From positions 1 to 22,752 of IMG/VR virus record IMGVR_UViG_3300030380_002033: DNA of 22,752 bases, one strand, 5' to 3'. Source of the DNA: a virus. Of this stretch, positions 1 through 17,743 are shown piece after piece (position 1 is the first letter of the stretch; every line of letters starts with the position of its first letter). Made by a program: the position numbers and the translations under genes. The notes beneath the pieces were generated by a model that did no database searches, was not told where the DNA came from, and saw only the letters and a list, made by a program, of their open reading frames with translations.

Positions 1-349
1 TGATTTTAAAACCCGTGCGACGTAGCCAACCCGCATCGTATTGTGCGTTATGCATGATTTTATCAGCGGGGCTTTCGCAGACCTTCTTCATCCAGTTGTT
101 GACGATACGTTCATCAAGATTACCGCCACCAAGATGTTTGATGGGCACATAACATTTAAAGCCATCGACAGCTACGGCGTAACCTACAATCTCTCCATTA
201 CCTGTAGGCCAACCTGGACCGCTACCTTTGATATCGGGATCTTTAGTCTCGACGTCGATTGCGATCGTCTTGGCTGAAGACAGATCAGGAAGTTGCTCAG
301 GTGGTATCCATTCGCTCTTCGGTGTAAACATTGCCATTTGTAGTGTCAT
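1..349 (-). CDS. Family A DNA polymerase, N-terminal 3'-5' exonuclease part (partial)
   Basis: Partial gene that runs off the left edge; about 116 N-terminal residues are present. They read as a DnaQ-like 3'-5' exonuclease domain as found at the N-terminus of phage family A (Pol I-type) polymerases. The segment AIDVETKDP (about residues 29-37) carries the Exo I Asp and Glu metal ligands, and MHNAQYDAGWL near the end of the visible part is the Exo II motif with its Asp. The polymerase domain itself is not in the window, so a stand-alone exonuclease is possible. The ATG at 349 is preceded by AGGA at a good spacing, and this site overlaps the stop codon of the gene upstream, which suggests coupled translation. 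It is the last visible gene of the leftward replication operon. In-phase Met codons at residues 5 and 7 are alternative starts but lack as good an RBS. Confidence 0.85.
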   Translation of the reverse strand, partial: MTLQMAMFTPKSEWIPPEQLPDLSSAKTIAIDVETKDPDIKGSGPGWPTGNGEIVGYAVAVDGFKCYVPIKHLGGGNLDERIVNNWMKKVCESPADKIMHNAQYDAGWLRRTGFKI

Positions 350-356
350 AATAGTC

Positions 357-557
357 CTATAGTTTGTTAACTTTAATACATTCGCCTAATACAATGTTGT
401 GATAATGTGGTAATTCTTTTGCCCGATAGTGAAGCAGTCTAATCTGACATTCTCGTTTTGTTTCAAACTCCCATTCAAACATATGTGTGAAACACGCTTG
501 TTTGGCCTCTCCGTTTGCTATCCATGCAGCACATATAAGTGCCATTGCTTTAAACAT
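357..557 (-). CDS. Small Cys-containing protein with signal-like N-terminus, unknown function
   Basis: Encodes 66 residues. The N-terminus (MFKAMALICAAWIANGEA) has one or two Lys-proximal positions followed by a short hydrophobic stretch and small residues, like a weak signal peptide or membrane anchor. The rest holds three more cysteines (in KQACF, KRECQ and LGECI), which could form disulphides outside the cytoplasm. The start is set by a GAGG at 567-570, nine bases before the ATG at 557; a TTG at 566 is also in frame but would touch the RBS directly. It overlaps the end of the DUF3310 gene by 8 bases and is followed closely by the polymerase gene. I do not recognise a named family. The real open frame and the tight packing support it being a gene, but no function can be read from the sequence. 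Confidence 0.6.
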   Translation of the reverse strand: MFKAMALICAAWIANGEAKQACFTHMFEWEFETKRECQIRLLHYRAKELPHYHNIVLGECIKVNKL

Positions 558-843
558 CGCTTTCAACCTCTATTAATTTAGCCAAGTACCACTGAGCTTT
601 TTTTAAATCCTCTACACCGTTTTTATGTTTATAACGTATAAGATATTTCATTATATTACCTTTTAGATAATCTGCAAACCCAGCACCCAACCCAGCTTGT
701 ATGACATGGATAGCTTCAACAGCGTTCTGCTTATAATGTGGTGGATGGTTTACCGTTTCATCTTGTTTTCGTATCATGTCTCCTACCTCTTTGTACTTGT
801 CCCGTATCATTTCTCTATATGGTTTATTGTCATCATACTTCAT
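550..843 (-). CDS. DUF3310 (SaV-like) phage protein
   Basis: Encodes 97 residues. The C-terminal two thirds match the DUF3310 signature common in phages: VNHPPHYKQ (31-39), EAIHVIQ (43-49), then GNIMKYLIRYKHKNGVEDL (62-80) and KAQWYLAKLIE (82-92). The family is sometimes labelled nucleotide kinase, but it has no P-loop here and its biochemical role is not established; it usually sits among phage nucleotide-metabolism and replication genes, as it does here. The first 30 residues are charged and probably form a helix outside the core domain. The start ATG overlaps the stop of the SF1 helicase gene as ATGA, and AGGAG lies 9 bases upstream. Family assignment is firm, function is not. Confidence 0.88.
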   Translation of the reverse strand: MKYDDNKPYREMIRDKYKEVGDMIRKQDETVNHPPHYKQNAVEAIHVIQAGLGAGFADYLKGNIMKYLIRYKHKNGVEDLKKAQWYLAKLIEVESDV

Positions 844-2351
844 ATGTGATAGCTCCTGTTGTTGTCATCAGGTTCAATGATGTAAAGATTTTGTTTGGCC
901 CGTGTAACGGCGACATAGAACACGCGGTGTACGTCATCGTTACCAATCCGCATGGCATCGTCAGCCGCGGGCGATAAGTCGGTGAATATCACAACATTTT
1001 CAGACTCACCGCCCTTGGACCCGTGTATCGTGGATACTGTAATGCGAGGCTCGCCATTAAACTTCTCACCTCTGCGTAACAGGGCTGTAATGTATACTCT
1101 TGACTCTTCGGGCAGTCTATCGAGTGCCTTGTGCCATATAAGTTCATCCCCTACAACAAGTCCGTGACTGTTCTGTAATGTTGCCATGTCTAGCAAATCC
1201 TGATCATCAATGCCACTTAATTTTTTAAAACCTCGCTTGACCCGTGTGCCACTGGACATGAAGCTGTAGACGTCTCTTGCTGTATCGAGTGTAATCTGTT
1301 TACCTTTACGCAGTTGTTCCCAGCCATTCACAGCTGAAGATATCTTCGCAGATATAGAACGGTGGCCTTTGTGTGAAAAGAGCAGACCCATAGACTTGAG
1401 CGTTTCTGCGACTGGGTTTAAGATGTACCCCGCCTGAGCTAGGATCAGCCATTGTCCCTCTGTGAGATCAATATCATCCAGCCGTGCCATGTGTTTGACT
1501 GTCCCCTCTTCTTCTTTAGGCTGGTAGCGTTTCGGATACCTATGCTTTATACGATCGACAATAGATTCAGCGATCTTGTGTATTTGTCTTGGTACTCTGA
1601 ATGACTGGTCTAGTGTTTCAGAAGTGCCCTCTAAATTAATAAACTGATCGACGTCAGCACCGGCCCACCTATAGATAGCTTGGTCATCATCTCCAGCTGC
1701 ATACATGGCTTTGCTTTTCTTATCCAAGGCGTGGGCTATGTCCCACTGTAGAGGCGATAAGTCCTGTGCTTCATCAAGAAATGTAATCTCAAAGGTCGGG
1801 CAGATGCGGTCATAGTCTTTGACAAACATCTCAAGCATATCTGTAAAGTCATAAAGGTTACGTTGTTTCTTATATTCGATGTAGCATTTGTGGACATAGT
1901 TCACTGTGTTCCAGTCATCTTCTATATATGATTCATTGTATTGTTCTCGCAGTGAGACTTTTCGCAGCCGTGCTAAATTGATGATGTTTAATATGGGATG
2001 ATCGGTATTTTGTTTATCAATTACATCATCGTCCATACCGCTGATACGCCCAAACGATATACCTATCTTCTGCCCCAGCTCTAGGAAATGTTCTCGTGAC
2101 AAAACTTGCTCCGGCCTTATTTCTGACAAATTTAGTGCAAGGCTGTGTAAAGTCCTGAAGAAAAACAAATCTTTTTCAGGATCAAGTTTAAACCTAGCCG
2201 CTGCTCTTTCTTTAGCTTCATTGGCTGCTTTCTTTGTAAACGCAAGAAAGGCAATGTGGTTTGGATGTACACCTTTGCTAAGATGATCATCGACCATATT
2301 GAGTAGCGTTGTTGTCTTGCCCGTTCCTGGGGGCCCGAATATGCGAAACAT
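840..2351 (-). CDS. UvrD/Rep-type superfamily 1 DNA helicase
   Basis: Encodes a 503-residue ATP-dependent DNA helicase. All the SF1A motifs are visible in order: Walker A GPPGTGKT (6-13), Ia with AFTKKAANEAKERAA (37-51), RTLHSLA (66-72), motif II FLDEAQD (191-197), motif III AAGDDDQAIYRWAGAD (218-233), motif IV around DQSFRVPRQI (248-257), motif V VSTIHGSKGGESENV (439-453) and motif VI VFYVAVTRAKQNLY (477-490). It is shorter than bacterial UvrD or Rep (roughly 670-720 residues), so an accessory subdomain is probably reduced. A role in unwinding during phage DNA replication or recombination is expected because primase, SSB-like and polymerase genes flank it. It shares one base with the preceding gene (TAATG) and has no clear Shine-Dalgarno of its own, so translation is probably coupled. 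Confidence 0.93.
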   Translation of the reverse strand: MFRIFGPPGTGKTTTLLNMVDDHLSKGVHPNHIAFLAFTKKAANEAKERAAARFKLDPEKDLFFFRTLHSLALNLSEIRPEQVLSREHFLELGQKIGISFGRISGMDDDVIDKQNTDHPILNIINLARLRKVSLREQYNESYIEDDWNTVNYVHKCYIEYKKQRNLYDFTDMLEMFVKDYDRICPTFEITFLDEAQDLSPLQWDIAHALDKKSKAMYAAGDDDQAIYRWAGADVDQFINLEGTSETLDQSFRVPRQIHKIAESIVDRIKHRYPKRYQPKEEEGTVKHMARLDDIDLTEGQWLILAQAGYILNPVAETLKSMGLLFSHKGHRSISAKISSAVNGWEQLRKGKQITLDTARDVYSFMSSGTRVKRGFKKLSGIDDQDLLDMATLQNSHGLVVGDELIWHKALDRLPEESRVYITALLRRGEKFNGEPRITVSTIHGSKGGESENVVIFTDLSPAADDAMRIGNDDVHRVFYVAVTRAKQNLYIIEPDDNNRSYHI

Positions 2352-2656
2352 TAGTTGTCATTACTGGGATTGATAGGTGGTTCAAAGCCAAGGTCTTCCA
2401 AAAACTCATCAACCTTTTGATCAGATGGTATCTCATGGACAAAGATTGGTGTGGTTTCTCCTACCCAAGCACCCACGACATTGAACTCCATCCACTCTAT
2501 GGCCTCTTCACGGGTCATGCCGTCTCGTTCCATAAAAATTTTTAGACATTTATTATAGCTGTAAACTAATACGTCAGGCATATTGATGCGACTACCTGTG
2601 CCTATGATAGCATCTTCTAGTCCATCGGCTTTGACCATTCTCTCATCATCTTTCAT
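2351..2656 (-). CDS. Conserved phage protein of unknown function
   Basis: Encodes 101 residues, mostly acidic. Notable segments are ADGLEDAIIGTG (10-21), LVYSYNKCLKIFMERDGMT (30-48), EEAIEWMEFNVVGAWVGETTP (50-70) and a Pro- and Asn-rich end. Small proteins with the pattern of a DG-containing start, a 'RDGM(T/S)xEEA' helix and a 'FNVxxAxVGExTP' strand occur in many tailed phages close to replication genes. I know of no assigned activity. The ATG is preceded by AAAGGAT at suitable distance, inside the end of the upstream small gene, with which it overlaps by 11 bases. It ends in a one-base overlap with the SF1 helicase gene, so the pair is likely co-translated, and a helicase accessory role is possible but purely inferred from position. 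Confidence 0.75.
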   Translation of the reverse strand: MKDDERMVKADGLEDAIIGTGSRINMPDVLVYSYNKCLKIFMERDGMTREEAIEWMEFNVVGAWVGETTPIFVHEIPSDQKVDEFLEDLGFEPPINPSNDN

Positions 2657-2828
2657 GATTTATCCTTTCTAAATGTTTCTTTAATTGTTCCTTCCAATTT
2701 GGATGCCCATGAAGCTCATAATAAGTAGGCTCTCTACCATTCTGTTTAATAAACAGTTGTCTAGCTTTTTCTTCTTCGTTTTCCATCCATTCTATAGACC
2801 CATATTCTATTTTATCTTCATCAGACAT
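2646..2828 (-). CDS. Small charged hypothetical protein
   Basis: Encodes 60 residues: an acidic N-terminal half (MSDEDKIEYGSIEWMENEEE) and a basic C-terminal half ending in KEQLKKHLERINHER. There is no signal peptide or membrane segment. The middle part, REPTYYELHGHPNW, is the most family-like region, but I cannot assign it. The ATG shares one base with the stop of the primase gene (TAATG) and has GGAG 8 bases upstream, which is good support for real translation of such a short frame. It lies between the primase and the 101-residue conserved protein, so it probably belongs to the replication module. A binding or regulatory role would be a guess. Confidence 0.65.
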   Translation of the reverse strand: MSDEDKIEYGSIEWMENEEEKARQLFIKQNGREPTYYELHGHPNWKEQLKKHLERINHER

Positions 2829-4357
2829 TAAAAAGGCTCCTTTTCTGTTTGTAAATTTGGTGTATTAAACTCGTGATCCGTGTTACGGTATGCGGGTATT
2901 GCCCAAACGCGTACGGATCGGTTACTGATTTTCATAACCGTACTGGACCCGTTAATATCCCGTAAGCGTTGGGCAATCTTGTGCGACTTGTACTCAAAAA
3001 ACTTATTCTTCTTGAGAAAGTTTTCAAAGTCTCTTAGTCGAAAGTAAGTTAAGTGTGCCTCTTCATCGGTCCAAGGCCGTCTTAACAATATCTCTTCTCT
3101 TTCCTGAGCTTGCTGTAAATGTCTGCAAAACTCTTCTAAGTAATCGTAGAACTGTCCGCTTGTACTTGCATCTTCTGCTACTTCTATAATAGCGGCATCA
3201 TTCTCTTTCATCTCATTAAGCAAAGCACTGATCCGTGCCTCCCAAGTTTCTTTCCGTACAGAGCGTGGCATGAAGTTAAGCTGTTCCATGCAAGCTTTCT
3301 GAAACGTGGGCTGTGATAGCAATGCTTCTGTGTCTAGCTCCAAAGGCTCGCCTGAGACGTCCAAAAACCAAACTGGCGGTGTTGAGTTATATTTTCTTAA
3401 ATTAGCGACTGTAGCCCCTTGTACGGCCGATCCTACACCATGTAAACGCGTTCTGCACAGTTCTTTGTTACAATGTGCGTTAATTGGACTATCTGTGCAT
3501 TTGTAGGCATAGTCTTTCTTCTTGGCTTGGTTGGCAACAAGGTTGACCTCACTTAATGGTAGTGGTGGATCAAGGTAGGTCATGTTATAAGTTAATATCT
3601 CTGTCTCCCAGCTGTCAGGAAAAGCTTTGCGTAAGTAAACAGCAAGGTTAAACAATCCATTGTTACGTCCACCCTCACTGATTTTACTTTCACATAAAGT
3701 CTGTAAACATGGTGGACCATCTTTGATTGGTGTATCTTTTATATCTTCTACTTGTAATGCTAGTATCTGCTCGTTATTGAGCTTATATTGATCGTACAAG
3801 GCGATAAACTCTTCTAAGGTGGCAGAGGTGCCGTCATCCTTTATCGCGTATCTAAGGCCACTTTCTGCGTCATAATACGGTAAGTTTAAAAAATTACCCA
3901 CATCGCCACGATCTAAATGTAATTTGATTTGTTTTGGAAATATCTCGCTTTGACCGTAGCCAAGAGCAGCTGATATATGTTGTAAGGTTTGTTGCATATC
4001 TTTTGCTTCTACCCAGTCTTCGCTAAATAGAAAGCAATGTGCCCCACCACTTTTGGAACGACACACAACCAGTGGTAATTTTACTTTTCTGATCTTCTCG
4101 ACAAGAACTTTATGGTCAAGAGGATAGGTATCAATATCAATACAACCCCACTTACACTGTGATTGTGCATTAATTGGTATGATACCTAGAGAGTCCCCTT
4201 TACCTGACAGATGACCCACCCAATGATCCTTGGTCCGTGGCTCCCTAATGAGAGCCGCTCTACCGGACTTCTTACCGTTGGTTTGGGTCTTATCTATCTT
4301 ATAAGTGCCAAACGCCTCTTCTAGTCCGTCAAATATTGAACTAAAAGCCTCCCACAT
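2828..4357 (-). CDS. AEP-type primase-polymerase (PrimPol) with C-terminal cysteine cluster
   Basis: Encodes 509 residues. The N-terminal 190 residues fit an archaeo-eukaryotic primase fold: the metal-binding DxD in CIDIDTYP (Asp74 and Asp76), the SGGAH motif (Ser103-His107) that contacts the nucleotide, and EIFPKQ (138-143) followed by GNFLNLPYYD (154-163), a version seen in phage and TOTE-type AEPs. It would lay primers and may extend them on the phage template. A second region (about 212-305) has GPPC (Cys217), a GRNNGLFNLAVYL helix, and Cys287, Cys296 and Cys301, which resembles the layout of the PriL-type metal or Fe-S domain. The last 200 residues are charged and unassigned; no helicase Walker motifs are seen, so this is not a T7 gp4-like fusion. 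It shares one base with the SSB-like gene upstream (TAATG) and lacks a strong RBS, pointing to coupled translation. Confidence 0.85.
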   Translation of the reverse strand: MWEAFSSIFDGLEEAFGTYKIDKTQTNGKKSGRAALIREPRTKDHWVGHLSGKGDSLGIIPINAQSQCKWGCIDIDTYPLDHKVLVEKIRKVKLPLVVCRSKSGGAHCFLFSEDWVEAKDMQQTLQHISAALGYGQSEIFPKQIKLHLDRGDVGNFLNLPYYDAESGLRYAIKDDGTSATLEEFIALYDQYKLNNEQILALQVEDIKDTPIKDGPPCLQTLCESKISEGGRNNGLFNLAVYLRKAFPDSWETEILTYNMTYLDPPLPLSEVNLVANQAKKKDYAYKCTDSPINAHCNKELCRTRLHGVGSAVQGATVANLRKYNSTPPVWFLDVSGEPLELDTEALLSQPTFQKACMEQLNFMPRSVRKETWEARISALLNEMKENDAAIIEVAEDASTSGQFYDYLEEFCRHLQQAQEREEILLRRPWTDEEAHLTYFRLRDFENFLKKNKFFEYKSHKIAQRLRDINGSSTVMKISNRSVRVWAIPAYRNTDHEFNTPNLQTEKEPF

Positions 4358-5199
4358 TAAAATGGCAACTCATCTTTGACAACTTCAGCCTCTGCTTTAA
4401 CTGATGGAGATGGTTTAGCATCTTCATTTGACGCCGGTGCTTCTTGCTCATATTTAATGTCAACATTATTTTGCTCCACAGACATTGCAAATGCCTTAGC
4501 TTCATTGTAAAGGTTAAGATCACCTAACTCGTCATCAAGCTTCATGTCCCAAACAAAATAGTCACCTTTACGTCCACTTTCCATGTAAGTACCAAGCTTA
4601 TAAGTATATAAAAATCTTGGTGGTATAAACATAGAACCGTCAGCTTTCTGCTTACGTCTTGTGGATATAATGCTATTCCATTTACGACTTGCTTTTAAAG
4701 ACGTACTTTTCATAGCGATCATAACAGCATCTGTAGCTCCAGTCGGCTTACCTTTATCATCAGTCTTGATAATTAAACAGTAATGCTGATGAGTGTCCTC
4801 GATGTAGTGACCTGATCCATCGGTAAGATATTCTTTATTATCTTCCTTAGATCTTTCTGTAGCTGGACATTCTTCTTTCGTTGAATAAATAGCTATTGGT
4901 GCACTTTGCTCATCACCAAGAGGAGACCATTGAATAAAACGTCTTTGAAATACACAAGGTAAAACCAACACGCCTTTGTCTCTATCGTAAATCTCTCCAG
5001 TGACTGTATTATACATATCGCCTGAGACCGCTCCACGATTAGCTTCAAGTATCTGCTTTGATAAGTTCGTTTTCAAAAACGGAATACTTAAAGTCTCTTG
5101 ATCGACTTCTTTATTACCTAGACCTGAGTCGGCTTCAACCATACTGAAATCTAGTGTTGCAACTTGCTGTTGCTCTTTTTTAACTACTGAGTCTGCCAT
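4357..5199 (-). CDS. Probable phage single-stranded DNA-binding protein
   Basis: Encodes 280 residues. The last eight residues, VVKDELPF, form an acidic tip ending in Pro-Phe like the C-terminal tail that bacterial and phage SSBs use to recruit partners, and it follows a flexible Ala/Pro/Ser/Glu stretch (252-272). The body (about 36-245) contains conserved-looking blocks LSIPFLKT, LVLPCVFQRRFIQWSPLGD (78-96) with many aromatic and basic residues, and IAMKSTSLKASRKWNS (161-176). The family is recognisable as a replication-associated protein of marine phages rather than as classical OB-fold SSB, so the assignment leans on the tail and on position between the primase and the promoter-proximal gene. 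The ATG directly abuts the upstream stop codon (TAAATG) with AAAGGAAA upstream. A recombination annealing protein is the main alternative. Confidence 0.62.
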   Translation of the reverse strand: MADSVVKKEQQQVATLDFSMVEADSGLGNKEVDQETLSIPFLKTNLSKQILEANRGAVSGDMYNTVTGEIYDRDKGVLVLPCVFQRRFIQWSPLGDEQSAPIAIYSTKEECPATERSKEDNKEYLTDGSGHYIEDTHQHYCLIIKTDDKGKPTGATDAVMIAMKSTSLKASRKWNSIISTRRKQKADGSMFIPPRFLYTYKLGTYMESGRKGDYFVWDMKLDDELGDLNLYNEAKAFAMSVEQNNVDIKYEQEAPASNEDAKPSPSVKAEAEVVKDELPF

Positions 5200-5769
5200 T
5201 TACTTTCCTTTCATAATTTTAGCTCTACGGCCTGTCCACGCACCAAATACTGGCGGTATCTCTTGACCGGCTTCAGTTTGTTCTCTTATCCAAGATTTAA
5301 GTGTACTGCTGTGTACGGTTTCTTTCTTATCGACAGAAAAACCTTTTGACAAAGCAGCTTCATAGAAATCTTTGGCGATGTTGTCTTCACCCATACCGAA
5401 CTCAGCCGCTACAGATGATTTAATTAAATCACCAAAGCCATTGCCTCGCAGCCAATCATGTGCTTGTGGGCGATCAGCTACTTTAATTGACCCGCCATAG
5501 GTAGGTACAATCTCGACCTTAGAACCATCTGACAAAGTAAAACTTTCTAAGTTGATCTCTTCCATCAACAAAGGCATATCTTCATCAGTTAAGGCAAGAA
5601 GTTCTTTCTTCGCAGTCTTGAGTTTATCCTCAAGCTGTGAAACCTCGTCTTCTTTTAAGGCTATCTTATGTGCAATGTCAGCTACGCTTTTTAATTTATC
5701 TGTGCTAACATCACTGATAGAATCTACACTAGTAGCGTCAGCTTCTATCTGTCTTAATAAATCACTCAT
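5200..5769 (-). CDS. Conserved phage protein with coiled-coil N-terminus, unknown function
   Basis: First gene of the leftward replication operon; 189 residues. Residues about 25-65 are rich in Lys, Glu and Leu with heptad-like spacing (KEDEVSQLEDKLKTAKKEL), a likely coiled coil. The C-terminal half has SFTLSDGSKVEIVPTYGGSI, a WLRGNGFGDLIKS segment and the end part VHSSTLKSWIREQTEAG followed by IPPVFGAW. Proteins of this design occur next to SSB or recombination genes in several phage groups, but I know of no function. A TTG at 5775 is in frame, but GGAG at 5778-5781 would sit only two bases from it, whereas it is 8 bases from the ATG at 5769; the ATG is therefore chosen. The promoter just upstream (5825-5853) would drive this gene and the eight that follow. 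Confidence 0.75.
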   Translation of the reverse strand: MSDLLRQIEADATSVDSISDVSTDKLKSVADIAHKIALKEDEVSQLEDKLKTAKKELLALTDEDMPLLMEEINLESFTLSDGSKVEIVPTYGGSIKVADRPQAHDWLRGNGFGDLIKSSVAAEFGMGEDNIAKDFYEAALSKGFSVDKKETVHSSTLKSWIREQTEAGQEIPPVFGAWTGRRAKIMKGK

Positions 5770-5813
5770 GTTCAAATCTCCGTTGTTCGTGATTAAAAGT
5801 CGTTATTATTGAC

Positions 5814-5843
5814 TTGCATATAAGAAGATATGCGTTATATAAT
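5814..5843 (+). promoter_or_regulatory. Rightward sigma-70-type promoter for the SNF2 helicase gene
   Basis: The plus strand has TTGCAT (5814-5819), an 18-base spacer and a perfect TATAAT (5838-5843). The predicted start near 5850 leaves a leader of only about 14 bases, just enough for the AAGGGAG ribosome site at 5852-5858, five bases before the ATG at 5864. A better -35, TTGACT at 5809-5814, lies 23 bases from the -10, which is too far. The AT-rich region could create TATAAT by chance, so the call is less certain than that for the leftward promoter. Confidence 0.5.
5816..5833. promoter_or_regulatory. Perfect 6-bp inverted repeat, candidate operator
   Basis: GCATAT and ATATGC form a perfect dyad separated by AAGAAG. 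It lies inside the spacer of the rightward promoter and covers the -10 of the leftward one, so a bound dimer would hinder both. The half-sites are short and AT-rich, so chance occurrence is possible. No repressor gene is seen in the window. Confidence 0.35.
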
Positions 5844-5853
5844 ATATTGTCAA
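5825..5853 (-). promoter_or_regulatory. Leftward sigma-70-type promoter for the replication operon
   Basis: On the minus strand the sequence reads TTGACA (5848-5853), a 17-base AT-rich spacer, then TATCTT (5825-5830). The -35 is a perfect consensus and the spacing is optimal; the -10 matches four of six positions. Transcription would start near 5818 and give a leader of roughly 50 bases before the ATG at 5769. No other non-coding gap upstream of the replication genes could hold their promoter. This implies use of the host RNA polymerase for early or middle expression. It overlaps the opposing rightward promoter. Confidence 0.7.
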
Positions 5854-5863
5854 GGGAGTAATC

Positions 5864-7315
5864 ATGAAAATGCCATATTTATTTAAAACAAAACCATTTA
5901 AACATCAGGAAGAAATATTAGACCTGAGTTGGAAACGTAAGTACTACGCCCTGTTCATGGAGATGGGACTAGGTAAATCTAAAGTAATTATTGATACAAT
6001 TGGTAAGTTAAAATTAGAGGGCGAGATCGATGCAGCTATGATTGTTGCACCGAAAGGCGTGTATGATAACTGGGTTAAACAGGAGATACCAAACCATTTA
6101 CCTGATGAATTTGAACGATTCGTGGTCCGTTGGCAACCGTCTAAGTCTAAAGCTTTTCAAGACGATATGAAAAAAGTAGTGTTTGAGATCATGGCTGGCG
6201 TAAAGTTCTTTATTATAAACGTAGAGGCGTTTAGCACCTTGCGTGGTAAAAAGGCTGCGTACTTTTTTCTGAAGCAAAACCCTGACAACATCATGGTTAT
6301 TGATGAAAGCACGACTGTTAAGAACAGAAAGGCTATGCGTACCAAGAACCTAGTGGAGCTAGGTAAGTTTGCTAAATACAAACGTATATTGACAGGTTCT
6401 CCTGTAACTAAGTCACCGATGGATTTGTATTCCCAATGTCAGTTCCTTGATCCGCAAGCTTTGGGCCAGTCTTCTTATTTCACATTTCAAAACAGATATG
6501 CCATTATACAGCGTAAAACATTTGGTGGTCGTAGTTTCAATGATATAGTAGGATATAGAAGATTAGATGAGCTGAATGCCAAGCTCGTCAGCTTTTCAGC
6601 TCGTACACTAAAGAAGGATTGTTTGGACTTACCTGATAAAATATATGTAAGAAGAAACGTAGAGCTTACAGCACAACAAGCTAAGGTTTATGAGGAAATG
6701 CGGCGATTCGCACTAGCTAGACTGTCTAAGGGCGAGCTTGCCACGACGGCCAGTATTTTGACCCAGTTGATGAGATTACAACAGATATGTTGTGGCTATC
6801 TTGAGAGTGACGAGGGCCGTTTAGAAATATTAGACAACCGTAGACTAGATGAGCTGATGAACATCATAGAAGAGACGAGCGGTAAGGTTATTATATGGTG
6901 TAACTATGTCTACGGTATAGCTGAGATTAGGAGAAGACTGTCTGAGGTATATGGTAAAGATAGTGTAGCTACATACTATGGCGAGACCAAACAGGATGAC
7001 AGGCAAGAGATTGTGCAAAGGTTTGAAGATCCTAATAGTTCGCTGAGGTTTTTTGTAGGTCAACCTAAGACGGGTGGTTATGGTATTACACTTAATCAGG
7101 CGTCCACTGTTGTGTATTATAGCAACAGCTATGATTTAGAGAGCCGATTACAGTCCGAAGATAGAGCACATAGAATAGGACAGAAGAAGTCTGTGACGTA
7201 TGTAGACCTTATATCACCGGGTACTATAGATGAGAAGATCGTCGAAGCACTGCGTAATAAAATTAATCTTGCAGACCAAGTATTAAAAGAAGATACGAAA
7301 AACTGGCTTGCTTAA
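5864..7315 (+). CDS. SNF2-type superfamily 2 helicase/ATPase
   Basis: The only plus-strand gene; 483 residues. SNF2-family motifs are in order: a FKHQEE start typical of motif Q (12-17), Walker A EMGLGKS (33-39), motif Ia MIVAPKGVYDNW (59-70), Walker B VIDEST (145-150, a DEST form in place of DEAH), motif III ILTGSPV (175-181), and in the second RecA lobe KVIIWCNY (341-348), GGYGITLNQAS (404-414) and motif VI QSEDRAHRIGQ (430-440), which is diagnostic of SNF2 proteins. It would translocate on double-stranded DNA and displace proteins or remodel forks; no nuclease or DNA-binding domain is fused to it. AAGGGAG lies 5 bases before the ATG. Its stop codon overlaps that of the opposing endolysin gene. 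Similar stand-alone SNF2 proteins are common in phages, and their function is mostly untested. Confidence 0.92.
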   Translation: MKMPYLFKTKPFKHQEEILDLSWKRKYYALFMEMGLGKSKVIIDTIGKLKLEGEIDAAMIVAPKGVYDNWVKQEIPNHLPDEFERFVVRWQPSKSKAFQDDMKKVVFEIMAGVKFFIINVEAFSTLRGKKAAYFFLKQNPDNIMVIDESTTVKNRKAMRTKNLVELGKFAKYKRILTGSPVTKSPMDLYSQCQFLDPQALGQSSYFTFQNRYAIIQRKTFGGRSFNDIVGYRRLDELNAKLVSFSARTLKKDCLDLPDKIYVRRNVELTAQQAKVYEEMRRFALARLSKGELATTASILTQLMRLQQICCGYLESDEGRLEILDNRRLDELMNIIEETSGKVIIWCNYVYGIAEIRRRLSEVYGKDSVATYYGETKQDDRQEIVQRFEDPNSSLRFFVGQPKTGGYGITLNQASTVVYYSNSYDLESRLQSEDRAHRIGQKKSVTYVDLISPGTIDEKIVEALRNKINLADQVLKEDTKNWLA

Positions 7316-7770
7316 CCTATGAGGCCTTGTCTATAGCCGTTGGCCTTGTCGTAGGTAAGTAGTTGCTTTCTTGGTGTCTCAGCTATTGAGCAATGCACCC
7401 AGCCTGTGTTACCGCCTGTGTAGCATTCTAAGATCAGCTGATCGAAGTCTAGGTTTTCACTGACCCACACAGCTAAGTCCATATTAGATACACCTGGAAC
7501 CTCAAAGTCTACCGCAGCTTCGCCTTTTACTTTGCAGCAATGCTGACTTTTTGCAGATGACCCTACTGCTATGCACAGCTCAGGGCTACGGAAACCTGAA
7601 CTTGGTGTAAACGGTATGTCGTAGTGATCGCGTACGGGCTGTAGTATTTTCTCAGCTATAAGCTTGAGTGATTGTTCTTGTAGTTTTGTAGGCGTGTTTG
7701 GTATGCCTTTGCGTTCAGCTGTCTGAGACTTTGTCAGTTCAGCTAAACTAAAATTTTCTGTAAGTTTCAT
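7312..7770 (-). CDS. M15-family peptidase, probable endolysin
   Basis: Encodes 152 residues resembling the Peptidase_M15_3 group (zinc D,D-carboxypeptidase or L-Ala-D-Glu endopeptidase-like), which cut peptide stems of peptidoglycan. Visible features are FSLAELTKSQTA (7-18), SSGFRSPEL (57-65), the metal motif starting SQH (His77) and ending in GEAAVDFE (Asp88), and the second ligand block GWVHCS with His126. The His to Asp spacing is 11 residues in place of the usual 7, an insertion in the active-site loop. There is no signal peptide, so release would need a holin, which is not identified here. As last gene of the late operon its start overlaps the stop of the 1584-residue protein gene as ATGA; its own stop overlaps the opposing SNF2 stop in TTAA. 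Confidence 0.82.
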   Translation of the reverse strand: MKLTENFSLAELTKSQTAERKGIPNTPTKLQEQSLKLIAEKILQPVRDHYDIPFTPSSGFRSPELCIAVGSSAKSQHCCKVKGEAAVDFEVPGVSNMDLAVWVSENLDFDQLILECYTGGNTGWVHCSIAETPRKQLLTYDKANGYRQGLIG

Positions 7771-10700
7771 TGAATATCCGATCTTTTTCTTTGTTTGGGA
7801 CTAATTATGTTATCACCAAATAATCTGCTAAAATTACTGCTTAAATAATCTCCAGTTTTTCTTACTAAACCCATGATGCCCATGTCCATTGCTTGTTCCA
7901 CAATTCCGGGTAAATATTGTTGTAATACCTGTTCGCCACGAGAATTGAACATCACTTTTTTACCATCTATTTCACCCTCAATTTGTGGACGTAAATTAGA
8001 CGGTACAGGCAAACCACCAATCATTGGTTGATTACTAACACCTAAACCACTTATTCCATAAGAGGGATTATTTGTAGGGTCTAATCCTCTTGATATACTT
8101 AGTGCAGCTGCATATTGTGGATCAAAATTTGCCATGCCTCGAATATTAGATCTGTTCAATCCGACTTGTGGCTGTGCAATATAATTAGCTATAGATTGAG
8201 CTGTATTGTCATCTCCAAAACCACCTGTCTGTTGACCTACGTTGGTGGCAAAATCAAAATCCTCTTGGGTCATACCGTAGTCAGAGGGATCTCCGTAGTC
8301 ATCGACAAACCCACCGTCTTGAAAAGGAATTATACCACCAATTTTAATTCCTCCGCCCTCTGGCATACTGATAGAAGGTGAAAAGTTTGTGACAAAATTT
8401 TGAAGATTTCTTGCTATTTCTCCCGCATAGCCGGGAAGATTTATAGATGTAATACCCGTGGACCGTCTTCCTTGAGGTCTTGGTTTTAAAGAGCTTGGTA
8501 ACCTAGCTGCTTCTCTTGGTGTATTATCGTTATTAGACCCTGTATCCTGTAAAGCAGATTGTATAGCTTCTTGAACAGATACAGGAGCTGTTTCAAGTCC
8601 CATGTCATATGAAGGATCGCCAGCTACACCACCATATTGCATAAATTGCGTAGGCTGTTGAGCGTTAATTAATCCTGATGTTATATCATCAGGAAACAAC
8701 GATGCAAATTTGTTTCTATCAATAGACGCGGCTGGTGGGGGTGTCCCCACTTTAGCCGCGAGGCGGTTGTTCACACCGCTACTTAGTCCTTGTCCAATCT
8801 GGGTGGTGGGAGACCCCTCTTGATTGGGCTGGACAGAACTCTGTTCTTGAAATTCTGGTCCTGTAACTTCCTCGTCAACTTCTCTTATGACAGTTGGTGT
8901 AATTCTTTTTAAAGGCTTGAAACCACTTGAGTACATCCATCCAATTAAAGCATCCCCAATTTGTTTTGCTTCTTCTTTTGTTCTAGCTTTTTGTAACATT
9001 TGAGATAGTCTCACTGGGTCGGCCATGAGTTCTGCCATGACGTCAATTTTCATACTCTGAGGAACATCTCTGAATATGTTTTCCATTATTCGTACACCGG
9101 CCTGTGATTCAATTAGACCTGTACCCATGCCCCTTGAACCAGGTAAAGGCATTTTTGCAGCAATAGCTTGACCAATTGAGGCACCTGATATTTTTAAATA
9201 GAAACCAAGGACACCATTAACGTCATCGGCTAAATCTCCAATACCAAACTTACCAGCAGCTTCCATAGCTTCAAACTTAACTAACTCTGTAACAAATCTT
9301 TTGACACCATTCATTTGTTTTTCTGTGGCTATGCCGTTTTTTATCATTAATTCTGCTAGGTTTGTTGACCTTAAAGCTTTAGGCATTTCAGAAAAGACTG
9401 TGTCGTAAAAGGCACGAGGACTAAAAGATTGACTTGTTCCTCCCGCTTTTGTCATGGCATACTCAAGGATTGATGTATATAACCCGTCTAAAGCTTTTTT
9501 TGGATCTGATGAAGCATTAGCGATACGAGCTAAATTTCTAATATCTCGTGTTGGGTTTCTACCTACGATGGCTTCTCCAGCTGTAATGACGGGGCTTTCC
9601 GCTGATTTGCCCCCAGAAACATTTTTAAAGAAGAGTTGATTGTCTAATTTTTTCTGTAAGTTTTTGTTTTTATCTTTAACATTTGAAAGTAAAACTCTGG
9701 CTGTATTAAAGTCAGTTAAATCATCTCTTAGTCCTTGAAAGGCTTGAGAGTCTAAAAGATCTTTATTTGTTTCCATCCATCTTGCTAAAGCCTTTTCATT
9801 TAAAGTTCCTGTCGTAGGATCTAAAGCAGCTGCCTTAGCATTTCTTAATATCTTCGTAAGTACACCTGTAACTGAGTTTGGTAAATCTGCGGCACCTTCT
9901 AAATTGTTTTCATCTGCAAACTTGCCGAGGTTAAATATTTGCTTAACTCTTAAATTTGTCGCGTCTGCACTACCAGAAAAAAGTTTGTCAGCTAAAGTTT
10001 CAGGATTATTTTTTATAACACCTGTTGATGTTTTTTGTAAAACATCTCCTGCAAAAGTATTTGTATAAACTTTGTTAAATGCTTTGGAGTACGCTCTTGC
10101 TGCATCATAATCAACATTTAAACCCTCTTCATAAGAATCTAAATCATCTAAAATAGCCTTGGCAAACTTCCCTGCAAAGCCTGCTGCTTTGGAATTACCG
10201 TTATTTCCTGACAATCCTCTTTGAAGGCTCAGAGCCAAACTTCTCATTTTAATAAGTTCTTTAGATGTTATAGTGCCTGTTGCTTCTTCCGCTTCATCTG
10301 CCACAGCACCTTTTGGTGTGGCATCAAGTTTTCGTAGTAAATCTTTGAAAATGGATTTAGCTGTATTATATTGAAACATTCTAGCGTCTCTGTTCTTCTT
10401 AGCTATTTCACCTTCTCCATACTTTTGTGGTTTATTATTACCTTCTACAAAATGGCTTTGTATTCTAAGAAGATCGTCTCTAGAAAATGTATTAACGTCT
10501 TTAAGTTTATCTATTTCATCTTTACCTATCTCAGGTAAGTTTAAATATCGCAACTGTTCATTTACCATATTTAAAACTAGATTATCTGTGCGTCCCTTTA
10601 ATGATCCTCTTGCTAAAAACGAATCTATGTTTTGATCAAATTTACTTAAATCTGGACCAGCTGCTGCTGTTTCATCTAATAACTTAGGATCAATTATATC

Positions 10701-12521
10701 ACCAAAACCAAGTTCTCTTGATTTTGCGTTTGCAAATGAAAACAAAGGTCTTAAATTTTTTGCAAAAAACTCTCTATATGCTTTTGGAATATCGGGACCA
10801 GTAAATTCGTCTTTGAAAACTTGTATAAAATTTGGCAAGGGTACTTCCTGTCCAGCATCATTTTTAAAATTTTCTAAATTGACGGATCTTACTTTATTCC
10901 ATAAAGCTTTTTCTTGACCACGGCCAAGGACAAATTGGTTTTGTATCATTTTAAATAAAGTTTCACCAAGCTCTGCGTTTGAAGCTGGGTCTTTACCCTT
11001 TACTGTTTCAAAAGAATCTAACACTAACTTTGTCGCATTGTGTAATCTGTGTGTCAAGGCATCTGAAAAAAGAGCTTCTGATAATTTCATTGCTTCTTTA
11101 ATGGCACCTTTATCACCTGTCTTGATTAACGCCAAAATAACATTTCTGAGGGCTGTACCTTGTTGCGACATTGCTGATTTCTGTTGCTTGCCTAAACCTC
11201 TGTTGGTTTGTGCTAAAGAAGCTTCAATGGCCATAAGCACCGGACTATCTGCTTTTAATCCTGCGGTCAGCTGTACTGAAGGATCTAATTTACCACCAAC
11301 CTCACTCAATTTTTCTATAAGAGCATTAAATTTTGTTTGATCTTTAAAATAAGACGGATCAATTTCGCCTTGTTCTTCAAGTAACTCTAAAATCTTTTTT
11401 GCACCAGCCATCTCTCTTTTTTCTTTTAAAAACGAGATCCCCTCTTTTGCACTGGTGTAAAGTCCTTTATCCTTTGCAGCTTTAGCTCGACCAAACATAT
11501 TAACAAGAGCGTCTTTTATTGCACCAATACGGTCAATTAGTAAAGTTCCTGCTACACCTGGGACAATAGATCCACCAAGCTCATACCCTACTCTTGGCAA
11601 GGCTTCGCCCGGTTGTGTCTGTTCTGCATAACCACCAAAGCCTGTTTGTGATACACCTACCATTCCTTCAATAGCTAAAGTAGGAATAGGACGTTTTACT
11701 GCAAACTTCTTTGATGAGGTCAGCATTTTTTCTATACCGTTAATTAAACGTATGACATTAGGTCCTTTGCCTTTAGCTAAACTTTTTACTAAATCTTTGT
11801 TTTTGTAATCCGCAGGAGTTAAAGGTCCTTTTTTTAAAGTTTCTACTAAATTATCTAAATACTTAGCAGAGCCAAAATCTACATTTTTTGATATTAAAAA
11901 AGGTGTTGGCAACCATGCAAAGGCACCAGCTGCTGTTTTACCAGCGGCGTATGCTTTACGAGTGCCCGGTAATATAGTTTTTTCATCCCCAAATAGTTGA
12001 GACGTTAGTAACTCGCCACCTTCCCAACCACCAAAAGCTCCTAATACAGTTCCACCAACAACTGTTCCAAATTTGCCAATTACACTAGGGACATTTTTTG
12101 CAGCTTGTGAACTTAATTTAGCACCAGTCACAGCTCCTGTTAGCGATAAACCTTGTGGCAAAATATCTCTTTTAAACCCCTCAAGCATCGTGCCAAATTC
12201 AAGTTCCTCCCCCTGTGATGTTCTAGCTAAAAAATTAATAATTTCATCGTTTGTTTTAAATCTTCTTTGACCGGGAGTTTGAGCCTTGAACGCAGGTACT
12301 TGATCAAAAAAAGAAGCTGTGCCATCTTTTAAGGTATCATATGTAAATAATCCCGGTGACTGAACAACAGATTTTGATACAACATCTCTTGCAATAATCT
12401 CTTCGATTGGCATATACTTATCTACGCCGTCAATTATTACGTTGTCCCCTGCCCCATAATTTTCATAAAACTCATTAATTTGAGGTTGATCTAGTATTAC
12501 AGGTTTTAATTCTAAACTCAT
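7767..12521 (-). CDS. Giant internal virion/ejection protein (T7 gp16-like by size and position)
   Basis: Encodes 1584 residues, the largest protein in the window. Three Gly/Ala/Val-rich hydrophobic stretches lie near the N-terminus (about 144-166, 192-210 and 312-328), the long middle part (about 350-1180) is mainly charged and helical in character, and the last 290 residues are low in complexity with MQYGGVAG (1294-1301), FQDGGFVDD (1400-1408) and a basic tail KQRKRSDIQ. Size, solubility with embedded hydrophobic patches and position as last large gene before the endolysin fit an internal virion protein ejected with the DNA, as T7 gp16 is; no lytic transglycosylase motif was recognised. It shares one base with the preceding gene (TAATG), with GGTGA just upstream. 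This rests on architecture and context, not on a recognised domain; an unusual tail protein is the alternative. Confidence 0.65.
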   Translation of the reverse strand: MSLELKPVILDQPQINEFYENYGAGDNVIIDGVDKYMPIEEIIARDVVSKSVVQSPGLFTYDTLKDGTASFFDQVPAFKAQTPGQRRFKTNDEIINFLARTSQGEELEFGTMLEGFKRDILPQGLSLTGAVTGAKLSSQAAKNVPSVIGKFGTVVGGTVLGAFGGWEGGELLTSQLFGDEKTILPGTRKAYAAGKTAAGAFAWLPTPFLISKNVDFGSAKYLDNLVETLKKGPLTPADYKNKDLVKSLAKGKGPNVIRLINGIEKMLTSSKKFAVKRPIPTLAIEGMVGVSQTGFGGYAEQTQPGEALPRVGYELGGSIVPGVAGTLLIDRIGAIKDALVNMFGRAKAAKDKGLYTSAKEGISFLKEKREMAGAKKILELLEEQGEIDPSYFKDQTKFNALIEKLSEVGGKLDPSVQLTAGLKADSPVLMAIEASLAQTNRGLGKQQKSAMSQQGTALRNVILALIKTGDKGAIKEAMKLSEALFSDALTHRLHNATKLVLDSFETVKGKDPASNAELGETLFKMIQNQFVLGRGQEKALWNKVRSVNLENFKNDAGQEVPLPNFIQVFKDEFTGPDIPKAYREFFAKNLRPLFSFANAKSRELGFGDIIDPKLLDETAAAGPDLSKFDQNIDSFLARGSLKGRTDNLVLNMVNEQLRYLNLPEIGKDEIDKLKDVNTFSRDDLLRIQSHFVEGNNKPQKYGEGEIAKKNRDARMFQYNTAKSIFKDLLRKLDATPKGAVADEAEEATGTITSKELIKMRSLALSLQRGLSGNNGNSKAAGFAGKFAKAILDDLDSYEEGLNVDYDAARAYSKAFNKVYTNTFAGDVLQKTSTGVIKNNPETLADKLFSGSADATNLRVKQIFNLGKFADENNLEGAADLPNSVTGVLTKILRNAKAAALDPTTGTLNEKALARWMETNKDLLDSQAFQGLRDDLTDFNTARVLLSNVKDKNKNLQKKLDNQLFFKNVSGGKSAESPVITAGEAIVGRNPTRDIRNLARIANASSDPKKALDGLYTSILEYAMTKAGGTSQSFSPRAFYDTVFSEMPKALRSTNLAELMIKNGIATEKQMNGVKRFVTELVKFEAMEAAGKFGIGDLADDVNGVLGFYLKISGASIGQAIAAKMPLPGSRGMGTGLIESQAGVRIMENIFRDVPQSMKIDVMAELMADPVRLSQMLQKARTKEEAKQIGDALIGWMYSSGFKPLKRITPTVIREVDEEVTGPEFQEQSSVQPNQEGSPTTQIGQGLSSGVNNRLAAKVGTPPPAASIDRNKFASLFPDDITSGLINAQQPTQFMQYGGVAGDPSYDMGLETAPVSVQEAIQSALQDTGSNNDNTPREAARLPSSLKPRPQGRRSTGITSINLPGYAGEIARNLQNFVTNFSPSISMPEGGGIKIGGIIPFQDGGFVDDYGDPSDYGMTQEDFDFATNVGQQTGGFGDDNTAQSIANYIAQPQVGLNRSNIRGMANFDPQYAAALSISRGLDPTNNPSYGISGLGVSNQPMIGGLPVPSNLRPQIEGEIDGKKVMFNSRGEQVLQQYLPGIVEQAMDMGIMGLVRKTGDYLSSNFSRLFGDNIISPKQRKRSDIQ

Positions 12522-14782
12522 TAGTTCACCGGTTTAATTATATTTTTTAAAATTTGACTTCTGTTAACATCTGGTGAACCACCTCCTGAGGTTACATCAA
12601 ATCCACCTAACAAGAAGACAAGTCTATCTATTTCACTATTATTACTTATTAAATCATTTTCTTTACCTCCTGTATCTCCTGAGGCTAACTTAGATAGATT
12701 AAAACCTTTTTGAGCTATTAAAGTGTCTCTTAATGTTTTAATTTTTGTAAGTTCTTGTTGAGGATCATTTAACAAAGTATCAGGGTCTATGAATAACTCT
12801 GCTACAAACTGCATCTCTCTAACTGGAAACTTGTTGTTTTTCACAAGAGCTGATCTTCCTAAAGCTATTATAGTTTTAAGATATTGTCGTGCCTGTGTTG
12901 TATCTGTGCCTCTACCGAAGAAGTCTTTTAACTGCACGGTATCTGGTAAAAATCCATCTATTACCATCAAACCGGCTCTTACGTTTGAGTAAAAACCCGT
13001 TCCATTAAGAACCATTTTCTGTACTTCATCAAAATCTTTTTTAAGCTCCGCTGGTATACCCTGACTGAACACTTCATAATTTTTAGATTTCATGTCCTTT
13101 AAAGCTTTTTTAGCGTCAGCTCTTCTTTTTTCTGATATATAAACAGCATAAGACTTGTCAGCACTAATAGCAAAACCTGAGCCCGGAGCTATATTAACTT
13201 TCTGTCCATCATCATCTGTATATGACTTACCACCATCATAGCTCATTACAACTTTGTTGCTACCAGTGTCCTTGTAGTTTTTTATTAACATCGGTGTAGG
13301 GTCTGGTGTTTTTTCTTTTCCAATCTCAAACACCTTAGAACCTGAAGGTGCACTAGTTACAGCGTTTAAACCGCTTTCACTATTAACGTCAACAATTGTT
13401 TCTGTACCGGCAGGGTCTATTATTCTATGTAAGTTTGGTTTTTCTTGTGTTCGATCACCAAAAATTGCTGTGCTTGTAAGTTTACCGTCAGCATTTTCTG
13501 ATGTTTTAACTATTTGACCTTTTACAACAGTAAATCTGTCTTTATCAGGAACTTTAAATAGAAGTTCATTAGTTCCCTCTTTATATACATATGATCCGGG
13601 AGTATAAGCTTTATTTTTGCCTGGGCCTTTATAAACCACTTGACCTGAAACATTTTTTATAACAACATCGCCCACGACAGTTGTTTTTGCTTGAATATCA
13701 GCTAGTTTACTTTTCATAGTAGTCTCTGCTTTTTTCTCAGCCGCTTGTGTAGTTTCAGCTGCTTGTAAAGCGGCAAGGTCTAACTTACGTTTGTCAGCGG
13801 ATAATTGTGCTGCTCTTGCCCCTATAGTTGGAGCTAACTTTGTGGTAGTAGCTGCCATAGCCAATCTTTCAGCAGGAGACATACCCGGCTTTTCACCAGG
13901 CATCGGAGCTGCAAAAGTCAAAGCTGTATTAGCTATGTCAAATAACATTTGAGCCTGCGTTAGTCTTTTTTGTTCTTCTGAGTCACCAAGTAGACTACCG
14001 TATAAATCTTTCTTTTCTTCAAATATAGTTTTTAAATCTCTAGCGGGCGTTACTTTTGGCAAGGCACTCAAAGCTTGAAGTTTTTTTTGATTTTGAGCTA
14101 AAGCCATGTTTTGTAAATACAAGTTATTCAAACGGTCCTCCGTCGTAGGTATTCTTGAAAAGCCACCAACAGGTGGTACTCCCTTGCCCTTGCTAAATTT
14201 TAAAACTGGGTCCTCGTCTCCACGGCGGCGAACCTCACCGCCATACCTAAAATTTTCGGGTGGTTCGTTTCCAGCCCCCGTCATGCTCATTATTCCGCCA
14301 GCCATATCGCCTTGAACTGGTGTATCCATTGCCTCGCGAGCCATCGGTGCAATGCCTTCTTCTGCCATGCTTATCTGAACTACTGGAGTGACAAGAGCCA
14401 AAACACTATCTGGTGTTTGAGCCGCGTCCTCTGGTCCAACTATACTTGCTAAATCATCTCTTCTTTCTTCTTCTGATTTATTCTCACCAGAAAACTGGTT
14501 CATCATAGATTGAAAGTCTGGTGCTTGTTCCAAGTCCCCTGTATCCTGTGCAACATCTCCTAAAGTAGCAGCTAACATATTAGGATCAATTTGTCCTTGA
14601 GGTTGAGCAGGCATTCCAGCCATGCCACCTTCTTGCATAGGTTTGAAACCCATTTTTCTCACAACATCTGGTCGTTTTTGAGCTAACGACTTCAAACCAG
14701 TGTTGTCTGCTGGAATTGTTTTCATACCAGCTGCTCCGCCATCACGGAACATTTGTCTCTGTAGTAATGCTCTATTCATCAT
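12521..14782 (-). CDS. Internal virion/ejection protein (T7 gp15-like by size and position)
   Basis: Encodes 753 residues. The N-terminal 190 residues are disordered in character and carry the short motif FRDGGAAGM (12-20), MQEGGMAGM (49-57), a DMAGGIM segment (159-165) and RYGGEV (179-184). A helical Ala/Gln/Lys-rich region follows (about 210-365, including LAALQAAETTQAAEKKAET), then beta-rich sequence with Gly/Ser turns (about 370-540), and a helical C-terminal part with RQYLKTIIALGRSALVKNN. A structural role inside the capsid or tail is inferred from its place between two other large virion proteins. The two first codons are both ATG; 14782 overlaps the preceding stop as ATGA, and a start at 14779 would be equally coupled. 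No enzymatic motif was seen. Confidence 0.62.
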   Translation of the reverse strand: MMNRALLQRQMFRDGGAAGMKTIPADNTGLKSLAQKRPDVVRKMGFKPMQEGGMAGMPAQPQGQIDPNMLAATLGDVAQDTGDLEQAPDFQSMMNQFSGENKSEEERRDDLASIVGPEDAAQTPDSVLALVTPVVQISMAEEGIAPMAREAMDTPVQGDMAGGIMSMTGAGNEPPENFRYGGEVRRRGDEDPVLKFSKGKGVPPVGGFSRIPTTEDRLNNLYLQNMALAQNQKKLQALSALPKVTPARDLKTIFEEKKDLYGSLLGDSEEQKRLTQAQMLFDIANTALTFAAPMPGEKPGMSPAERLAMAATTTKLAPTIGARAAQLSADKRKLDLAALQAAETTQAAEKKAETTMKSKLADIQAKTTVVGDVVIKNVSGQVVYKGPGKNKAYTPGSYVYKEGTNELLFKVPDKDRFTVVKGQIVKTSENADGKLTSTAIFGDRTQEKPNLHRIIDPAGTETIVDVNSESGLNAVTSAPSGSKVFEIGKEKTPDPTPMLIKNYKDTGSNKVVMSYDGGKSYTDDDGQKVNIAPGSGFAISADKSYAVYISEKRRADAKKALKDMKSKNYEVFSQGIPAELKKDFDEVQKMVLNGTGFYSNVRAGLMVIDGFLPDTVQLKDFFGRGTDTTQARQYLKTIIALGRSALVKNNKFPVREMQFVAELFIDPDTLLNDPQQELTKIKTLRDTLIAQKGFNLSKLASGDTGGKENDLISNNSEIDRLVFLLGGFDVTSGGGSPDVNRSQILKNIIKPVN

Positions 14783-15687
14783 CCGAATAACCCCGCTTTG
14801 TTTGCTCCTGCTGCCGCTGATAATCCAGCGATACCAAGACCTAAATATTGTTGAAATGGTGATACATTAGGTGTACTTGACTGAGTAATAGTAGACTGGG
14901 AGGTCGGAGTCTTGCTATATATGTCAGACAAGAACCCTAATCTTTGATACGGCTCATATAGTTGTGCTAAATCACTTTTATACTGAGCATCTAATTTTGC
15001 TTGATCGTAACCTTGTTCAAGGCCACCCATCTTGAAGGCACCTTCAACATCTCTTTGTAATAAATTTTGACCTGCTTCTCCTAAAGCGGCTTGTCTTAAA
15101 CCAAGTTGTCCTTGAGCATCTGCTAGACCTGCAATTCCTTGACCCAAAGTTGTCTGTCTGCCAAGTTCTCTCTCAGCAGCAGCTTGAGCCTGCAAAAAGT
15201 TTTCAGCTTGAGATCGAGCTAAAGCAGAGGCTCTATTTCGTCCTACTTCGGAGCCCACGATTTGTCCCCTTGATCCACCGAAGGCACCTGACCCTATAGC
15301 ACCTGCGTTAGCTTGATTTAGCTGCATATCATAAGAACGATTAATCTCATCTTGAATGGCCTGTTGATAAGGGTTCATATACCTTTGCAACATTTCATCT
15401 GTTACAGGACCAGCTCCAGCTCTAAGTGCTTCTTCAACCCCGCCCATTGTTTTGCTTGCATCGGCTAGTGTAGCTCCTGCTTGATCAATATAGGGCAGAA
15501 AAGCTCCTAAACCTTCTTCGGATTGAGCTAAAGCAGCGAGCTGCAAATCAGTCATATCTGCTATTTCTTGTGTGGGCAGATCTATTTCTTGATCAGCAAG
15601 ATCTTTTGCTGAATCAAGTAAACCTATTCGGTAGGCTTCTATTTCAGGACTTTCCCTAACGGTTTGAATTACTTCTTCTGTAGCCAT
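14779..15687 (-). CDS. Virion structural protein, Ala/Gln-rich, probable ejection protein
   Basis: Encodes 302 residues. The block YMNPYQQAIQDEINRSYD (about 106-123) followed by GAIGSGAFGGSRGQI, GRNRASALARSQAENFLQAQ and repeated LGQ/LRQAALGEAG helices is a recognisable pattern in many marine phage structural proteins (MNPYQ, then a GAFGGSR turn, then Ala-rich helices). The C-terminus is a short Gly/Ala-rich hydrophobic patch (YLGLGIAGLSAAAGANK). Long amphipathic helices with a hydrophobic end suit a protein that inserts into or crosses a membrane, such as T7 gp14, but no experiment on this family is known to me. It shares one base with the preceding gene (TAATG) and overlaps the next as ATGA, so the three-gene set is probably made in a fixed ratio. 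Confidence 0.68.
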   Translation of the reverse strand: MATEEVIQTVRESPEIEAYRIGLLDSAKDLADQEIDLPTQEIADMTDLQLAALAQSEEGLGAFLPYIDQAGATLADASKTMGGVEEALRAGAGPVTDEMLQRYMNPYQQAIQDEINRSYDMQLNQANAGAIGSGAFGGSRGQIVGSEVGRNRASALARSQAENFLQAQAAAERELGRQTTLGQGIAGLADAQGQLGLRQAALGEAGQNLLQRDVEGAFKMGGLEQGYDQAKLDAQYKSDLAQLYEPYQRLGFLSDIYSKTPTSQSTITQSSTPNVSPFQQYLGLGIAGLSAAAGANKAGLFG

Positions 15688-17717: not shown

Positions 17718-17743
17718 ATACTACCTCATTTTTTTTGTTAAGT

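Follow-up and report, generated by a model that had tools for sequence, protein, structure and literature searches.

Introduction

The control region of phage lambda carries the divergent promoters PR and PRM together with operators for CI and Cro, and lambda cI mRNA is leaderless. Steric exclusion between RNA polymerases has been documented at overlapping opposed promoters, where simultaneous binding is precluded (PMC12825309; PMC4207663). The bidirectional promoters of Escherichia coli described by Warman et al. (PMC12825309) produce divergent mRNAs from a pseudo-symmetric sequence, with possible steric competition. They share one -10 element, their start points lie most often 10, 18 or 23 bp apart, and basal activity at the five shared -10 promoters tested was too low for real competition. 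The Pc/Pr pair of the Bacillus plasmid pLS20, which has been compared with lambda PR/PRM, consists of opposed promoters on one stretch of DNA that admits one polymerase at a time, with one promoter starting near its partner's -35 (PMC4207663). Pc/Pr combines a strong and a weak promoter with the regulator RcoLS20 and DNA looping, and a rule cited in the same paper holds that a switch requires that its promoters differ in strength and that a regulator act on them unequally.

Here we examine a 94-bp divergent gap in a 22.7-kb marine phage record (IMGVR_UViG_3300030380_002033; the whole 22,752 nt are referred to as the window). As in pLS20, two opposed promoters appear to lie on one stretch that would accept one polymerase at a time, the predicted start of one lying near the -35 of its partner, although their scores differ less than the strong and weak promoters of the plasmid. 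Divergent mRNAs (predicted for the phage), pseudo-symmetric sequence and possible steric competition are shared with the E. coli type, from which the phage pair differs in having separate -10 elements (7 bp between them) and predicted starts about 30-35 bp apart. The locus resembles lambda PR/PRM as a divergent promoter pair in a phage control region, and the leaderless cI mRNA resembles what we predict below for the leftward gene of one related clade; lambda has its CI/Cro operators and pLS20 its regulator, whereas neither operator nor regulator is established for the phage gap. We conclude, with a probability of about 0.7, that the gap holds two mutually exclusive sigma70-type promoters that co-express an SNF2 gene and a set of replication genes. 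The pair was not recognised among the matches listed from open-access literature on phage overlapping or bidirectional promoters and on phage HTVC027P; an HTVC027P infection transcriptome is described in PMC12753301, and the passages of PMC9599517 covered do not contain the word "promoter".

Results and Discussion

Genomic setting of the gap

By family matching, the gap separates an SNF2-family helicase gene (phrog_62; 5864-7315, plus strand) from a run of genes on the minus strand. The first of these (5200-5769) encodes a DUF7307, Pam3 gp33-like protein, whose counterpart Pam3_33 is annotated as a host-nuclease inhibitor, and it is followed by a Pam3 gp34-like gene, a primase with an AEP-type domain, a small phrog_13182 gene, a UvrD-type helicase, a DUF3310 gene and the start of a DNA polymerase gene. 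The left gene is instead Pam3 gp32-like in the relative G004, as it is in MW574966, HTVC027P and DSL-LC04. Likely ribosome-binding sites can be read for both genes that flank the gap, GGAGAT (5776-5781, minus strand) for the leftward gene and GGGAG (5854-5858, plus strand) for SNF2.

No near DNA match to the window was present in the phage collection, and no relative was confirmed in the bacterial and archaeal genome collection. In G001, a relative whose SNF2 protein is 98% identical, simple ORF calling placed 79 of 86 ORFs on one strand and left SNF2 as the sole long ORF on the other. The gap had been described as the sole control region between genes in 22 kb, which is true of the likely genes of the window (a further gap, of 79 bp, lies beside a doubtful ORF) but not of the phage: within 60,000 of the 60,501 bases of G001, the same ORF calling gave 14 gaps of at least 40 bp, 5 of them divergent.

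As an aside on gene content, phage DSL-LC04 has between its UvrD and primase genes a gene annotated "RNA polymerase sigma-G factor" (2391-2648 of that locus); at the comparable place in the window, the gene at 2351-2656 matches phrog_13182 alone, a family of unknown function.

Two superposed promoter-like sites

On the minus strand the gap contains TTGACA (-35; 5848-5853), identical in all 19 distinct aligned sequences (the window and L002-L031), and, 17 bp from it, TATCTT (-10; 5825-5830). On the plus strand TTGCAT (-35; 5814-5819) is followed after 18 bp by TATAAT (-10; 5838-5843). These hexamers, their spacings and their coordinates, as well as the dyad considered below, agree on reading the sequence with the original prediction. 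From hexamer to hexamer the two stretches (5853-5825 and 5814-5843) overlap by 19 bp within a span of 40 bases, so that the pair is physically overlapping in the sense used for divergent sigma70 promoters, albeit with a rightward -35 that matches the consensus at only three of six positions; the -10 elements occupy different positions and are not shared, as they are by definition in the E. coli type (PMC12825309). Transcript starts are predicted at about 5817-5819 leftward and about 5849-5852 rightward, and the -35 of each promoter would thus cover or adjoin the start point of the other.

Single promoter matches carry little meaning in this DNA, since a consensus scan returned 40 promoter-like sites in positions 1-20000 as compared to 50.2 (sd 8.1) in shuffled sequence. 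That scan reported the minus site (10/12) and omitted the plus site. Scoring was also done with a matrix of E. coli sigma70 base frequencies, possibly not those of the host, which gives 12.3 to the minus site and 10.3 to the plus site, the maximum being 16.5. When the 94-bp gap was shuffled 5000 times with dinucleotides preserved, p was 0.014 for the minus site alone, 0.067 for the plus site alone, which by itself is weak and not significant, and 0.0022 for both jointly. The minus site ranks third and the plus site seventh on their own strands in the window, and together (5814-5853) they form its best-scoring overlapping antiparallel pair. The motif TTGACA-N16-18-TATNNT occurs once in the 60.5 kb of G001, at the gap, a rarity that is weak evidence because the backwards control also gives one.

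Elsewhere in the window, a near-equal second overlapping antiparallel pair lies at 12525-12567 (10.23/12.22, against 10.29/12.29 at the gap) with a gene boundary near 12521, and the top minus-strand promoter-like site (14.5) is at 21066-21094, inside the gene at 20331-21488.

The higher p of the plus site, its half-matched -35 and its absence from the consensus scan are what would be expected if the leftward promoter alone worked, with the rightward match a chance product of AT-rich DNA and SNF2 either weakly transcribed or served by a promoter inside the left gene. We regard this as unlikely, in part because the SNF2 gene has no other non-coding DNA upstream of it, and in part because of what relatives have preserved.

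Conservation among relatives

Five scans of relatives yielded 378 loci, 373 with an SNF2 start and 351 with a divergent left ORF starting at ATG. Counting the window, 333 regions had a gap of at most 150 bp and enough flank, and clustering at 85%, which removes contigs found by more than one scan, reduced them to 82 non-redundant junctions; 19 loci related through the left gene are excluded from the counts. A junction was scored as holding a strict pair when its best plus and best minus scores were both at least 9 and overlapped by at least 12 bp. Such pairs occur in 28 of the 82 junctions, as compared to 1.4 expected (200 shuffles each) and to 1/82 in each of three controls (reversed, SNF2-coding and left-gene-coding sequence), although the junction representatives are related and the 28 are not independent events.

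With groups assigned by best-matching query, the strict pair is present in 3/3 of the nearest junctions (the window clade at 80% identity or more) and in 18/18 of the L035 clade at the same identity, hereafter clade B. It fails in 54 junctions, being found in 1/11 of the L035 group below 80% identity, 1/11 of the L025 type, 4/17 of the L056 type, 1/15 of the HTVC027P type (where the reversed control also gives 1/15, 9 of the 15 rows show an 8-bp overlap between their best promoters, and HTVC027P itself, with SNF2 as gp87, has the layout of smaller overlap) and 0/7 of the relatives at about 50% identity to the window. The layout is thus firmly retained in two clades and altered or lost elsewhere. 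Comparison with related phages had been put forward as the check on both promoters and on the dyad; it upholds the promoters, which the closest relatives and a further clade keep as such or as equivalents, but not the dyad, which is not kept, and the strict pair is mostly absent from groups that share the gene order but are farther removed (the last two above).

Where the layout persists, its hexamers and spacers have turned over. The plus site TTGCAT-18-TATAAT is rewritten as TTGATA-17-TATCTT in the L014 group, and the minus site TTGACA-17-TATCTT as TTGACA-16-TATATT in relatives L008 and L014, each with the layout intact; the rightward -10 of L006 is TATACT, and the L022/L024 subclade retains TTGACA with no well-spaced leftward -10. 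This pattern argues against a solitary leftward promoter, since the plus hexamers of the nearest relatives are either retained or exchanged for others of equal score. In the relatives at about 50% identity it is the plus promoter (TTGACA-17-TATTGT and similar) that is the better supported, at p 0.05 or less in 6 of 7 rows.

The sequence and its conservation in two clades thus favour divergent promoters that overlap physically and are hence mutually exclusive, as was originally proposed. On this reading of two superposed sigma70-type promoters, the gap would be a compact divergent control region where host RNA polymerase binds facing either left, to transcribe the replication genes, or right, to transcribe the lone opposite-strand SNF2 gene, but not both ways at once. 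We infer that both promoters are active, that they start where predicted, that the host enzyme serves them and that they compete in vivo; no phage RNA polymerase is named among the families listed for ten window proteins and 24 G001 ORFs (for G001, 25 of 41 families). Steric exclusion between the two orientations suggests that hexamer quality would set the ratio of the transcripts and would not create a two-state switch.

Symmetry elements and the question of a switch

An inner dyad, GCATAT (5816-5821) and ATATGC (5828-5833) separated by 6 bp, lies within the pair. In shuffled gaps, 37% hold at least one 6-bp inverted repeat (gap 3-20) and 16% hold two, as the real gap does; when the window is cut into 50-bp tiles, 12% of them also hold one. 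The dyad is therefore statistically unremarkable (p 0.16-0.37), such repeats being common in so AT-rich a gap. Among 12 distinct clade A sequences (31 in total) it is complete (6/6) in three, 5/6 in three and 4/6 or less in six, and it is missing from relatives whose promoters stay intact. A role as operator was rejected on this chance-level frequency and poor conservation, and the dyad is most likely incidental.

The axis of the pair itself was tested in 38 overlapping pairs selected for scores of at least 8.5 and an overlap of at least 12 bp. No symmetric operator was found on it: spacer-only positions were self-complementary in 67 of 204 cases as compared to 63.6 expected (4/7 against 2.3 in the window itself). 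Outer-flank positions paired in 104 of 281 cases. Hexamer-touching positions paired in 250 of 445 cases, a symmetry that is partly built in because the axis is defined by the two -35s and the pairs were selected by score. The most likely reading is that this symmetry simply follows from having two opposed promoters.

A second dyad, AAGTC-9-GACTT (5797-5815, minus strand), could form a 5-bp hairpin near where the leftward mRNA is predicted to begin. By reading, and without a shuffle control, its five pairs are retained in all 16 distinct clade A leaders (31 sequences), with one two-sided, compensatory change (T-A to A-T), while three leaders have a G-U variant. The hairpin appears in the minimum-energy fold of 12 of the 16, and those 12 leaders fold at -2.7 to -4.8 kcal/mol. 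The pattern AAGNC-N9-GNCTT occurs 2, 2, 4 and 0 times in the relatives G001 to G004 (backwards control 0, 1, 3 and 1), and one of the two places in G001, one of the four in G003 and neither in G002, where the spacing is 10, are at the gap. The bare pattern thus occurs at about the control rate and is not special by itself. Slight evidence suggests that the element may stabilise the mRNA as an RNA hairpin or mark a site on the DNA.

These elements bear on the proposal that the layout is a simple genetic switch, in which a phage or host protein would bind the gap, favour one promoter and so choose between SNF2 and the replication genes. pLS20 builds such a device from unequal overlapping divergent promoters and a regulator (PMC4207663). 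The scores here are likewise unequal, the second dyad is a possible operator conserved in clade A, and a Pfam scan of 24 of the 86 G001 ORFs gave one match to a ribbon-helix-helix family (RHH_5, E 6.8e-05). We nonetheless consider a regulated switch quite improbable. The inner dyad is not conserved and the axis has no symmetry beyond the hexamers; clade B, with its ATG too close to the -10, has no leader room for the second dyad, whose pattern recurs elsewhere in relatives at about the control rate. Moreover, the functions on the two sides look linked and not opposed: an SNF2 helicase, a nuclease-inhibitor-like protein, a Pam3 gp34-like protein, a primase, a UvrD helicase and a DNA polymerase would more plausibly be co-expressed than chosen between. 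With no operator established on the axis of the pair or at the two dyads, and no cognate regulator established among the proteins covered (10 window proteins and 24 of 86 G001 ORFs), the cautious interpretation is that the two sides are divergently co-expressed and mutually exclusive. The part of the switch proposal that stands is the mutual exclusivity of the promoters; its regulated choice is unsupported.

That the gap element is instead an origin of replication, or a different protein site, was rejected as very improbable, for, although the gap is AT-rich (the share of 100-bp windows with equal or lower GC is 0.8% in G004, 12% in G001 and 6% in G002) and lies beside replication genes, three long relatives show no genome-wide turn of cumulative GC skew there, only a shallow local dip that tracks the strand of SNF2, and the positions conserved in clade B (in a consensus of score-selected pairs) largely coincide with the -35 and -10 elements.

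Predicted leaderless mRNAs in clade B

In 18/18 clade B junctions the left gene has an in-frame ATG 6-11 nt past the leftward -10 (L178 has a further in-frame ATG at 0 nt), and by reading there is no purine-rich site between the two. With transcription starting about 7 nt past the -10, the leftward mRNA of this clade would be leaderless or nearly so, which we consider probable. In 9 of the 18 junctions the longest left ORF has its initial ATG within the promoter or farther upstream; an ATG in or before the -10 would be unusable by a transcript from the clade B promoter.

A broader possibility, offered tentatively, is that throughout the lineage the superposed pair sets a ratio with no regulator, the orientation in which polymerase lands fixing the proportion of SNF2 to replication proteins and lowering noise. 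In clade B this device would have near-consensus -35s on both strands and a pair fused with the start codon, the leftward mRNA beginning at or a few bases from the AUG. Across the relatives, superposed promoter pairs with differing hexamers and spans form a natural series in which regulator-free competition for polymerase could be measured, and the clade B layout predicts leaderless mRNAs in uncultured marine phages. Aside from the series and this prediction, the gap is an ordinary compact phage control region with a layout of a known kind.

The distal end of SNF2

To the right of SNF2, a leftward M15-type endolysin gene overlaps the SNF2 3' end by 4 bp (7312-7315); the genes beyond it, also leftward, are probably structural, judging from size and order. 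No known RNA family was detected in the window at gathering threshold. Folding of the SNF2/endolysin junction gave one weak plus-strand terminator candidate near 7331 (-5.6 kcal/mol) and no minus-strand terminator in the stretch folded, and a scan placed another plus-strand candidate at 7107-7128, within SNF2. Given the 4-bp convergent overlap and the lack of a convincing terminator, late transcripts may read antisense through SNF2.
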